A DNA stretch of 35,742 nt from a virus, in IMG/VR virus record IMGVR_UViG_3300046808_000500, positions 1 to 35,742 of that record. One strand, written 5' to 3'. The notes under the pieces were generated by a model. The model was not told the origin of the DNA, ran no database searches, and was given only the letters and a program-made list of their open reading frames with translations. Made by a program: the position numbers and the translations under genes. Positions within the stretch are counted from its first letter, which is position 1. The number at the start of each line of letters is the position of its first letter. Shown here piece after piece: positions 1,042 to 13,806 of the stretch.

Positions 1042-2331
1042 TTAAACTACTTCTTCCCATTCAAGGGCGCCTACGCATTTGTTACCACTCTGACCAGGAG
1101 AAACAGCAAGAATGAATGTAGTAGGAGTGCTCGTAAAGCTGTTTCTTTCAAGCTGATATTTAAACAATCCAGAATCTAAACTAATAACAGGCGCAGATTG
1201 ATTAGAAACAGTTGTAAATCCTGAAACTAATTCAGTCCCACCTGTGATTGCTGTGCCTGTAATATTATATTCAACTGAAGAATTCGCCATAGGTGACCAA
1301 GTGCCACCTGTAATTGTTCCACCAGAAATGATTTTATATTGATAAGTTCCTGTATTACTTGTGCCAAGAAGGTGTATATTCTTAGGAAGAACAATGCCAT
1401 CTAACCGTGTTGACTTTAAACGAATGGCAACAACAGGATAGTAGGTACCTGCTGTTGTTAGTGTGTAATCAGCAGTGATATCAGTCCCAACCGTTCTTGC
1501 GCGACCGCGAAGTTCATACCCACCTTCTGAAATTACTGTTGCACAAATCACTGTCATTGTGCTTGAACTTGCCGTTGCACCAATGTTTTCTATTTCAGAA
1601 CGGATTGGTAGGCATGCCGTACCCATGTATGTTGTTGTAACACTGTTGGCATGATGGAATGTATGACAATGAATGAATTCACCATCAATTACAAATCCCA
1701 TGCGAACAGAACCAACACCTAACCATTCAATATCAATGAATAAAATTTGTGCTTTTGTTAAATCTAAAGTCTTTCCAGAAATTCCTTGTCCATCTAATTT
1801 GTCCAAATTCCAATTAGCTTGTGTGACTTTGTTTTCCACAATACTGCCAGATGACTTGGAACGAATGACAAAACTAATTTCTGTTCCTAATGTTTGTAGA
1901 AACACGCCATTATCAGTTCCAAAATATCCATATCGTTGGCGAAGATTTTCTTTCGGCGTTGCTAACACAAACGTTTCTAGAATTTGTAATGACTTACCTG
2001 GCTGATAGGCAAACACACGACTGGATTCACGATACACATATGAGCCTGATGTTTGGTCAACAGTACAGGCAACAGTGCTAGAATTGGTATCATGTGTTGC
2101 AGATGCACCTGATGCACTAGTTGCTGTTAGAATTTTTGAATCATCTTGATATCTATGAAACGAGTCAAACAATGTGTATGGATTTGAACTTCGTGCTCTT
2201 CCAAACGCATCAACCGCCATGCCTGTAGGATTGGCAGCACCCACCATGTTGCCATACTTGTCAGCAAGCATCATCACTTCGAATCGTTGCTCGCCATCCA
2301 TTGTTAACAATGGTTTTACATATTGTGCCAT
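1042..2331 (-). CDS. Putative virion structural / tail-appendage protein
   Basis: A 429-residue protein rich in Thr, Ser, Gly and Ala with predicted beta-strand character throughout and no catalytic motif. A central block (about 200-230) with IDIEWLGVGSVRMGFVIDG and then HCHTFHHAN resembles proteins annotated as structural in marine T4-like phages; I recognise this only by memory of the family. The C-terminal third contains repeated TGGT/ITGG units typical of fibre or adhesin-like proteins. Its ATG overlaps the stop of the upstream gene (TAATG), so the two are probably co-translated, downstream of two late promoter boxes. This suggests late expression and a role in the particle, such as a fibre, whisker or decoration protein. 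The exact role is unknown. Confidence 0.5.
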   Translation of the reverse strand: MAQYVKPLLTMDGEQRFEVMMLADKYGNMVGAANPTGMAVDAFGRARSSNPYTLFDSFHRYQDDSKILTATSASGASATHDTNSSTVACTVDQTSGSYVYRESSRVFAYQPGKSLQILETFVLATPKENLRQRYGYFGTDNGVFLQTLGTEISFVIRSKSSGSIVENKVTQANWNLDKLDGQGISGKTLDLTKAQILFIDIEWLGVGSVRMGFVIDGEFIHCHTFHHANSVTTTYMGTACLPIRSEIENIGATASSSTMTVICATVISEGGYELRGRARTVGTDITADYTLTTAGTYYPVVAIRLKSTRLDGIVLPKNIHLLGTSNTGTYQYKIISGGTITGGTWSPMANSSVEYNITGTAITGGTELVSGFTTVSNQSAPVISLDSGLFKYQLERNSFTSTPTTFILAVSPGQSGNKCVGALEWEEVV

Positions 2332-4115
2332 TATTGCATTCCCTCTTGTACGGCTTTCATCAAAGCACGCATGTCTTTTTCACGCATGGTTGATGGAAGT
2401 CCTTTTTTAAAGTTATTGAAATCATCTTTCATGGCAAACTCACGCATTTTACTTGCTGACATGCCTGCTGCACCATCTGCATCTGGGTCACGCTCACCTG
2501 CTGATATCACTTCGGCAATTTTAAATTTGAAATCTTTGCCATTATATTTGTTTATTAATGCTTGATATTCATCCACTCTATCTGACCCAGCAACCATGAT
2601 GACTTTATCATATTGTTTGTTGCTGAATTCTTTCAACCAGCCAATGAATGTCGGCATCAACAATGTTGCCACATCAAGATTGGTGTTCGGGAACATCAAT
2701 TTAGCAAATTTCAATTTATCTTCTGGACTTAGAGGATTCTTTTTTGCATCTTGTGATTTGGACATCACTACAAGATGATCCCCTTTATTACTTTTTGCTA
2801 AACTGATTACTTTATCAATCAATTTCTTATGCCCAATAGTTGGAGGATTCAATCTGCCAAATGCAAACACAATTGTTTTCAATTGTTTATCTACATCTGT
2901 CGGTGCTGCCGCAGGTTTCGCCCAATCTTTTACAGCATTGAAATTGGCTTGTGAAAACTCCATTCGATTCACCAGCTTTACCGCATTGCCCTTCTTGTCT
3001 ACAGCAACATATCCTTCAGGGTCAGTGACCTTGAATCCTTCAGGTGTTTCAATGAATGTGGGGATGCTTTGTGCCCCATTCAATTTTTTCACCAAGATGT
3101 TTTTTATAATTAACAAATTCTCATACAATGAAAACATTGCACGAAGATTGGTATTGTTCTTTTGTAAATAAGCTTCAGTTTCCTTTAATATGCCAGAATA
3201 CCGTGCCTTGGCTGATGCAGTTTTCACACCAGCTTCTTTGGCAGATATTCTTTCCACAATAAAGGATTTTAACCCAGCTAGACTACGCTGCGTTATTGGC
3301 TTACCTTCACGGACCAAGCGATTCACAAATATCTTGAACAGATATCCAACACTTAAATCCGACTCCATGTTAGATAACTCATCAAGAAATTTCTTCGCTG
3401 TTAATGCATTCGTTTTAGCAGAAGCCAGATTAGAACTAACCGTTCGGGTTTCCTGATTCGTCAGCGTCATTTTGCCCGAGACATCTCGGTATGTTGCGTC
3501 TTGAATCCAGGCTGTTGGAGATTTTAGCTTGCTAACGTCTACACTAAACGAAGAGGACATACTATTAACTTGTCCCTTACCAGAATATTTAGTATGGAAG
3601 ACAATTCCAACATTCGCCTTTTCGATACTTTGTGCTAACGGGTCCGCAACAGGAATGGCGTACATTATGGTGTTCGGCTTGAATGTGATGTATTCCACAC
3701 CATCAATTGTTTGTTTCTTTTTTGAGGCGTGCGTGAACATCACATCGCCCTGCAACACATCTTTCATACCCAAATCTTTCAATTCACGATATACATATTT
3801 CAATGTGTCAGCTAATCCGCCTTGATAATACAAATCAATATGTTCTTCACTGAAGCCAAGTTTCATGTCTTTGGCAAAGGCACCATGCTTCGTCGCTACG
3901 AAAAACAATCCCGTTTCCGGGTCTTGACCAGCCACGACAGCAGGGGCGCCGTCCCATTTCACAGTGATGTTCACGGACTTGGCAGAATTACCTTCAAACA
4001 ACTGCAAAAGCGCCTCAACAAACGCTATGGATTGTTGGGCGCCTTTATAACCTAGATTGATGATATCATCTTCTAGATGCTCTAAATGCATGTTTTTTTC
4101 GGATTTTCCTGCCAT
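2331..4115 (-). CDS. Two-domain protein: DUF6267-like KWDG domain + cytidylyltransferase-like domain
   Basis: A 594-residue protein. Residues 1-395 match my memory of a family common in T4-like cyanophages (DUF6267). TVKWDGAPAVVAG places KWDG at 53-56, like motif I (KxDG) of nucleotidyltransferase ligases. PEGYV (366-370) and AVKLV (378-382) resemble ligase motifs IV and V. Residues 411-594 form a nucleotidylyltransferase domain: FAFGRLNPPTIGHKKL carries the HIGH-like TIGH (426-429), and GMSASKMR (551-558) is the family's C-terminal S-x-S/T-K-hydrophobic-R signature, as in NMN or pantetheine-phosphate adenylyltransferases. Substrate and role are unknown. The ligase-like reading of the first domain is my inference. 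Two TATAAATA boxes upstream and the structural-type gene downstream suggest late expression, so a virion or DNA-end function is possible. The start has GGGGCTAGACA before ATG. Confidence 0.7.
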   Translation of the reverse strand: MAGKSEKNMHLEHLEDDIINLGYKGAQQSIAFVEALLQLFEGNSAKSVNITVKWDGAPAVVAGQDPETGLFFVATKHGAFAKDMKLGFSEEHIDLYYQGGLADTLKYVYRELKDLGMKDVLQGDVMFTHASKKKQTIDGVEYITFKPNTIMYAIPVADPLAQSIEKANVGIVFHTKYSGKGQVNSMSSSFSVDVSKLKSPTAWIQDATYRDVSGKMTLTNQETRTVSSNLASAKTNALTAKKFLDELSNMESDLSVGYLFKIFVNRLVREGKPITQRSLAGLKSFIVERISAKEAGVKTASAKARYSGILKETEAYLQKNNTNLRAMFSLYENLLIIKNILVKKLNGAQSIPTFIETPEGFKVTDPEGYVAVDKKGNAVKLVNRMEFSQANFNAVKDWAKPAAAPTDVDKQLKTIVFAFGRLNPPTIGHKKLIDKVISLAKSNKGDHLVVMSKSQDAKKNPLSPEDKLKFAKLMFPNTNLDVATLLMPTFIGWLKEFSNKQYDKVIMVAGSDRVDEYQALINKYNGKDFKFKIAEVISAGERDPDADGAAGMSASKMREFAMKDDFNNFKKGLPSTMREKDMRALMKAVQEGMQ

Positions 4116-4127
4116 TGTCTAGCCCCG

Positions 4128-4135
4128 TATTTATA
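4128..4135 (-). promoter_or_regulatory. T4-type late promoter box (TATAAATA), proximal
   Basis: Minus strand reads TATAAATACGG, an exact match to the T4 late -10 consensus. It is only 12 bases before the ATG at 4115, so a transcript starting here would have a very short leader. The distal copy is the likelier start. Confidence 0.5.
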
Positions 4136-4145
4136 TCTATCTTAC

Positions 4146-4153
4146 TATTTATA
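4146..4153 (-). promoter_or_regulatory. T4-type late promoter box (TATAAATA), distal
   Basis: A second exact TATAAATA on the minus strand, 18 bases upstream of the first. It contains the TAA stop codon of the preceding gene (4149-4151). Its spacing leaves room for the GGGG ribosome site of the 2331-4115 gene. Confidence 0.65.
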
Positions 4154-6486: not shown

Positions 6487-6494
6487 TATTTATA
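6487..6494 (-). promoter_or_regulatory. T4-type late promoter box (TATAAATA)
   Basis: Exact TATAAATA on the minus strand in the 42-base gap between the gp41 gene and the HExxH gene. It is correctly placed to transcribe the latter. Confidence 0.7.
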
Positions 6495-13364: not shown

Positions 13365-13806
13365 TTGTCAATCCACCTGTGTTCAATCGTTCCTTAATTG
13401 TCTGTAATTGCTCAGGCGTCAAGATACGTAGGGCTTGCTGTGCTTTCTCAGTATTATACTTATAGTACTGTTTCACCACTTCAAGGTCTTCGATTTTCTC
13501 AGCCTTTAACCATTTGTTGAATCTCTTGCGAGGTCTAATGGTATTTATAAGGAAATCAAACTGAAGGCGTTTTTCCAAATGGGGACGACTGTTCATTTCG
13601 TTGGCTGCAATAACTGTATCAGCCCCGAAACTTAAACTTTTATTGATGACAAATGCATTATATTGCTTCTCACTCCAATCATCTACAATTAAAGGTTCCT
13701 TTGTATAATGAATGGCGTTCACGAAATCGAACGGACTGATTTTCGGTGCTTTATATTCTTCCACCTTTTCTGGTGTTTGAATTTCTTCACCGTCCAGATT
13801 CATCAT
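13354..13806 (-). CDS. 62: Clamp loader small subunit gp62
   Basis: A non-ATPase subunit that joins four gp44 subunits to load the sliding clamp. It has 150 residues (T4 gp62: 187). Typical features are SPFDFVNAIHYTKEPLI near the start, YNAFVINKSLSFGADTV and the FLINTIRPRKRFNKW block. Its ATG overlaps the TGA of gene 44, and its own end overlaps regA by 11 bases, so the clamp-loader genes and regA are translationally coupled. Assignment rests on these blocks and on the T4-like order. Confidence 0.9.
   Translation of the reverse strand: MMNLDGEEIQTPEKVEEYKAPKISPFDFVNAIHYTKEPLIVDDWSEKQYNAFVINKSLSFGADTVIAANEMNSRPHLEKRLQFDFLINTIRPRKRFNKWLKAEKIEDLEVVKQYYKYNTEKAQQALRILTPEQLQTIKERLNTGGLTNGT

Follow-up and report, generated by a model that had tools for sequence, protein, structure and literature searches.

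Analysis of a 35.7-kb viral contig (35,742 nucleotides, hereafter the window) revealed a gene that joins a DUF6267 domain to a HIGH-type nucleotidyltransferase domain within a single protein. This fusion is real and conserved, and it belongs to a widespread phage family. We consider it probable that the protein is a lysine-nucleotidyl transferase for nucleic-acid ends, coupled to an NMNAT-like enzyme and made late. Beyond what an initial annotation of this DNA had covered, signs of head packaging were detected in relatives of the fusion, in the form of a leader peptide and of detection in virions.

The fusion gene and its relatives

The gene was found to be one ORF that runs from window position 4115 down to 2331 on the minus strand and specifies 594 aa and a stop; the plus strand of this region carries many stops. 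The KWDG, EGYV, VKLV (residues 379-382), GRLNPPTIGH and SASKMR motifs listed at that time were located by script at exactly the residues given, and the conservation of key residues in them among homologues indicates that the motifs are not due to chance. The whole 594-aa protein was modelled by AlphaFold2 at a pLDDT of 91.5 (97 aligned sequences). Neighbouring genes in the window are T4-like and include a gp41-type helicase, UvsX, a DNA polymerase and a clamp loader. Coordinates of the fusion gene and associated features are collected in the table.

Late promoters had been suggested upstream of the gene, and two TATAAATA boxes were indeed present there, the more distal of which is the more plausible. 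In related loci this box was found 213 times on the coding strand compared to 9 times on the other. The window holds four TATAAATA boxes (two within 4128-4153 and one each at 6487-6494 and 13542-13549), all on the minus (coding) strand.

Features of the fusion gene, its surroundings and the associated kinase
Feature	Position	Strand	Remark
Next gene, PHROG 1645 virion structural protein	1042..2331	-	Shares one base with the stop codon of the fusion gene
Fusion protein gene (DUF6267 + HIGH-type nucleotidyltransferase)	2331..4115	-	594 aa
HIGH-type nucleotidyltransferase domain, residues 412-594	2334..2882	-	PPAT/NMNAT fold; structure match and profiles
ISSTxxR-type motif SASKMR, residues 553-558	2442..2459	-	Conserved
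HIGH motif GRLNPPTIGH, residues 420-429	2829..2858	-	Conserved
Linker, low confidence, residues 397-411	2883..2927	-	pLDDT < 50 at 397-408
DUF6267 domain, residues 8-396, predicted covalent (lysine) nucleotidyltransferase of RNA/DNA-ligase fold	2928..4094	-	Pfam and model
Motif V-like KLVNR, residues 380-384 (K380, R384)	2964..2978	-	K and R invariant in 61/61
Motif IV EGYV, residues 367-370	3006..3017	-	E, G and V invariant in 61/61
Mostly helical insert, residues about 207-352, between motifs IIIa and IV	3060..3497	-	Predicted secondary structure
Motif III-like QGD, residues 122-124, Asp in place of the usual Glu	3744..3752	-	Invariant in 61/61; on a strand
Motif I KWDG, residues 53-56, candidate catalytic Lys53	3948..3959	-	K, D and G invariant in 61/61
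T4-type late promoter -10 box TATAAATA, nearer the ATG	4128..4135	-	Upstream of ATG
T4-type late promoter -10 box TATAAATA, more plausible of the two	4146..4153	-	Upstream of ATG
Zeta/PNK-like P-loop kinase, beside or fused with the HIGH domain	L082 7721-8380; L044/L046 5197-6492; L105 8579-11983		

In the collection, 532 phage records, mostly of cyanophages, matched one or both domains of the fusion protein. The DUF6267-HIGH pair occurs widely among T4-like aquatic phages, in most cases with the genes side by side: the two were neighbours, as that pair alone, at 58 loci and fused at 31, and DUF6267 was present on a further 39 loci, many of them short, on which no HIGH gene was found. On a tree of DUF6267 the window fell within a well supported clade of nine rows, all fused, and fusion was observed at three separate places, including S-PM2d and L075, which have long branches and unsure positions. 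In the newer record of S-PM2 the gene (L083 5992-7771; L233 792-2567) forms a single frame, and in the older one it is split in two, perhaps through a difference of sequence or annotation. By search of plasmids no DUF6267 was found. In a bacterial genome collection there were 35 DUF6267 loci, the titles of which mostly indicate metagenome-assembled, binned or single-cell genomes. In one phage group a DruA-like protein (Pfam DruA, E 1.7e-9) is encoded upstream of DUF6267 (L036 1743-2852).

A P-loop kinase accompanies the pair in part of the family. In HTVC008M it is gp129, encoded between the DUF6267 and HIGH genes and matched by Zeta_toxin (E 3e-13) and the PNK family PHROG 505 (E 9e-8). Similar kinases were detected near DUF6267 at about 30 loci; in L044, L046 and L105 the kinase and the HIGH domain form one protein. 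No kinase was found in the clade of the window, as represented by the window record and the records of five relatives, including a 177.9-kb contig, in a search that carried no internal positive control.

Predicted folds and motifs of the two domains

The first domain, which the initial annotation had likened to DUF6267, matched that Pfam family (PF19782) over residues 8-396 with E = 3e-104 and 349.7 bits against a cut-off of 27, spanning profile positions 1-376 of 376. By PHROGs this part of the fusion belongs to family 455 (function unknown), and a literature search returned no papers naming DUF6267 or 'cytitidyltransferase'. The name 'ribonucleotide reductase' on some relatives comes from database records.

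Residues 1-400 modelled alone with AlphaFold2 gave a pLDDT of 88 and a pTM of 0.82. When the model was compared to the PDB by Foldseek, nothing was returned at E <= 0.001; several ligases were among the weak matches, including the NAD+-ligase adenylation domains 3jsn and 1b04. Foldseek's top 1000 were realigned with VIA-align, and by this approach the best 50 rows were all RNA or DNA ligases, with Z of 6.0-9.1. The best match was the N. gruberi RNA ligase (Z 9.1, rmsd 3.6, 181 residues aligned), and further ligases included REL1 (Z 8.2), T4 Rnl2 (7.8), Trl1 (7.7) and T4 Rnl1 (7.2), with archaeal RNA ligases and DNA ligases at Z 6-7. Capping enzymes were absent among these 50 rows, which does not exclude them. 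In the alignment with T4 Rnl1, residues 2-392 corresponded to 47-251; provided that no gaps fall near the ends, K53 would lie no more than one residue from K99, E367 from E227 and K380 from K240. The same end-of-range arithmetic for T4 Rnl2 gave a fit at K380 only. A PDB sequence search, run with the complete protein and also with the DUF6267 profile, returned no meaningful match. Comparison of the DUF6267 profile to the T4 Rnl1 and Rnl2 families also gave no match, a result that carries no weight, as the positive control (Rnl1 compared to Rnl2) gave none either. RNA_lig_T4_1 matched one of 61 DUF6267 members (E 0.017).

The ligase assignment is persuasive because the VIA-align rows were unanimous, though their Z values are modest, and with moderate confidence the predicted structure places DUF6267 as a remote relative of RNA and DNA ligases. 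The initial annotation had allowed that the N-terminal domain might have no nucleotidyltransferase fold; the fold predicted was of the ligase type. It had also suggested comparison to both ligases and ATP-grasp proteins, of which RNA/DNA ligases matched and metabolic ATP-grasp enzymes did not. A metabolic ATP-grasp reading was dropped, as the structural matches are ligases.

The motifs of DUF6267 follow a ligase-like order: KWDG at the end of a strand, QGD124 on a strand, F145-x-P-N-T, E367-G-Y-V370 and K380-L-V-N-R384. K53, D55, G56, D124, E367, G368, V370, K380 and R384 were invariant in all 61 homologues. Across these homologues and SSCSM1_257, the KxDG motif varied at x only (W or F, with M in SSCSM1_257). 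Motif V has a single invariant lysine (K380) together with R384, the second lysine of KxK being absent, and the spacing of 13 between E367 and K380 is the same as that between E227 and K240 of T4 Rnl1. An insert of about 145 residues, predicted to be mostly helical, separates F145 and motif IIIa from motif IV. No OB domain is present, and the split DUF6267 proteins end without a further domain past motif V. SSCSM1_257 (294 aa, KMDG) retains the motifs with the insert shortened. This short DUF6267 of S-SCSM1 (L277 1907-2791) lies about 132 kb away from the HIGH gene of that phage.

The second domain, annotated from the start as a HIGH-type nucleotidyltransferase, was found to have a Rossmann-like fold with intact HIGH and ISSTxxR-type motifs. 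Residues 412-594 matched phosphopantetheine and NMN adenylyltransferases in structure (best Z 14.7, rmsd 2.8, 148 residues aligned), and the HIGH (GRxNPPTxGH) and ISSTxxR-type (S-x-S-x-x-R) residues were kept in 18-19 of 19 homologues. Pfam CTP_transf_like matched weakly at residues 418-474, and PHROGs assigned this part to cytidyltransferase families 3041 and 395. Among the 19 HIGH members, profile matches were of the NadD type in 17 (best 3e-8), NadR in 16 and CoaD in 8. None of the 19 reached the curated cut-offs of NadD, NadR, NadM or CoaD, nor was the NMN adenylyltransferase equivalog score attained. The domain also has a conserved stretch of its own, SAGERDPDADG. By sequence it appears nearest to NMN adenylyltransferases, ahead of PPAT, and is described here as NMNAT-like; NMN or a similar phosphate is most likely its substrate, to judge from weak profile scores that all lie under curated cut-offs.

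Leader peptides and virion location

Many split members of the family carry a leader (MKxFxxYLxE) like that of T4 internal proteins. The N-terminus of T4 ipII and ipIII is MKTYQEFIAEA, which we take to be a capsid targeting sequence cleaved at L/I-x-E. The internal proteins of T4 are a diverse defence set that have only the capsid targeting sequence in common (PMC3012670). With a stricter leader pattern, 40/95 split DUF6267, 21/60 split HIGH and 5/22 kinase proteins were matched, compared to 31/529 other ORFs, none of 58 helicase/UvsX-cluster proteins and about 1% of shuffles. A looser first pattern matched 57, 23 and 7 of the same three sets, respectively, versus 55/529 other ORFs. The size of this excess is approximate, since the stricter pattern was devised after the family had been viewed and after the looser version, and related sequences were counted repeatedly. 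The fusion of the window starts with MAGKSEKNMHLEH and has no leader, and none of 15 fused proteins matched the stricter pattern; the fused proteins of L072 and L075 matched the looser one from an internal Met. A T4-like leader was also observed on other small proteins near DUF6267 (L103 6439-7880, L128 9137-9631, L017 5776-6192 and L005 9319-9621). With several further small proteins bearing a leader that resembles capsid targeting, the DUF6267 region may be a cargo cluster.

Virion data are available for some relatives. The published virion proteome of S-SZBM1 includes its HIGH protein (362 aa, MRFRQFIIEA), and the tag expected for the leaderless DUF6267 neighbour does not occur in the text of that paper; in the present analysis tags were assigned to genes by protein length and order. 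For S-SCSM1, the HIGH protein (MKSFLQFLKEA) is listed among virion proteins but the leaderless DUF6267 protein of this phage is not. A cytidylyltransferase is also present in S-CREM2 virions. The authors of the S-SCSM1 and S-CREM2 studies caution that such proteins may be carry-over from purification. The leader is not the sole mark of virion proteins, as gp137 of S-SZBM1 was detected in the virion and has none. The suggestion that the fusion acts late, perhaps in the virion, is borne out in part: the late boxes are present, and in relatives the separate HIGH protein has been detected by virion MS and has a T4-like leader, but the window fusion is leaderless, and for it a virion location is no more than a possibility despite its late promoter boxes.

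Proposed function, alternatives and known systems

We infer the lysine-NMP chemistry, the substrates and the purpose of the fusion as follows. The enzyme would be produced late in infection. Its DUF6267 domain (residues 8-396) would represent a divergent member of the RNA/DNA-ligase superfamily of covalent nucleotidyltransferases, with a helical insert and none of the additional C-terminal domains that such enzymes usually have. An NMP, most likely AMP from ATP, would be taken up by Lys53 of KWDG and passed to an acceptor, most likely the 5'-phosphate of a nucleic acid, leaving the end activated, sealed or capped. Residues 412-594 would function as an NMNAT/PPAT-type adenylyltransferase, most likely combining ATP and NMN into a dinucleotide such as NAD+. 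Both domains may serve one task, probably to repair or protect nucleic acid (and/or NAD) in the face of host damage. The zeta/PNK-like kinase would join the pair in many relatives, and in some the HIGH enzyme would be carried in the phage particle. Nucleic-acid ends are favoured as the shared target because a zeta/PNK-type kinase accompanies the pair in relatives; the nucleic-acid reading leans on these relatives, as the kinase was not found in the clade of the window.

A reading that we regard as unlikely is one of NAD metabolism, in which the HIGH domain, joined in relatives by the kinase, would rebuild NAD+ during infection, for example against an NAD-depleting defence, and the ligase-fold domain would move AMP to a small molecule or protein instead of a nucleic acid. 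NadR has a HIGH-type domain followed by a kinase, and the HIGH-kinase order of L044 and L046 is similar. The NMNAT families that top the weak profile matches and the HIGH enzyme reported in S-SZBM1 and S-SCSM1 virions are likewise consistent with this reading. By contrast, the kinase profile had its best PDB matches in adenylate, seryl-tRNA(Sec) and zeta kinases, with nicotinamide riboside kinase absent among the matches listed, and the reading leaves unexplained why a ligase fold travels with an NMNAT.

That a KxDG enzyme is paired with an NMNAT-like domain would, together with the weak Foldseek matches to 3jsn and 1b04, also suit an NAD+-dependent ligase with recycling, where DUF6267 takes AMP from NAD+ and frees NMN, and the fused NMNAT remakes NAD+. 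This is improbable, given that the N-terminal 45 or so residues lie within the range aligned to the region preceding motif I of ATP-dependent RNA ligases, that an NMN-binding Ia domain was not recognised, and that DUF6267 also occurs at loci without a HIGH gene. The invariance of all motif residues argues for catalysis and speaks against a role of the ligase-fold domain as a virion assembly or structural factor with catalysis secondary, in the manner of T4 Rnl1, which doubles in tail-fibre attachment. The late promoters are in keeping with such a role, as are the overlap of the stop codon with the start of a virion structural gene and the annotation of T4 rnlA as both RNA ligase and tail-fibre attachment catalyst; with the expected DUF6267 tag missing from the text of the S-SZBM1 virion paper, we give it little credence.

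The preferred reading, of a lysine-nucleotidyl transferase for nucleic-acid ends, may be extended, although only tentatively, to a scheme in which DUF6267 is a new lysine nucleotidyltransferase branch that forms, with the NMNAT-like enzyme and the zeta/PNK-like kinase, a nucleic-acid-end/NAD kit. In many T4-like aquatic phages this kit would be loaded into the head by its T4-type leader and injected with the DNA; in the lineage of the window two of its parts would be fused, late and leaderless. DUF6267, previously without function, would gain a testable lysine-NMP chemistry and a partner enzyme, and the leader may predict which copies of DUF6267 and HIGH proteins get packaged. If packaged with DNA in relatives, these proteins would count, like T4 Alt and the internal proteins, among injected enzymes, here in phages that are abundant in aquatic environments.

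Residues 8-396 match DUF6267 (PF19782)/PHROG 455, cyanophage T4-like GC 71, from end to end; PHROG 455 itself covers both DUF6267 and the HIGH domain, and the function is unknown in both libraries. Compared to the ATP-dependent RNA ligases (N. gruberi Rnl, REL1, T4 Rnl1 and Rnl2, Trl1), the domain is alike in predicted fold and in the order of motifs I, III, IV and V, but differs in its motif III Asp, its KxVxR motif V and the helical insert of about 145 residues between IIIa and IV. Past motif V it is followed only by the HIGH domain or the end of the chain, and the sequence match to these ligases is not significant. The HIGH domain shares its fold and its HIGH and ISSTxxR-type motifs with NMNAT/NadD/NadR and PPAT (PF01467), yet falls under every curated cut-off and has its own SAGERDPDADG stretch. 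In relatives, a leader similar to that of T4 ipII and ipIII is found on many of the split DUF6267, HIGH and kinase proteins, unlike the fusion of the window. The same two-domain fusion is present in an isolated cyanophage, S-PM2, as S-PM2d138 (LN828717, 591 aa), which is about 38% identical to the window protein.
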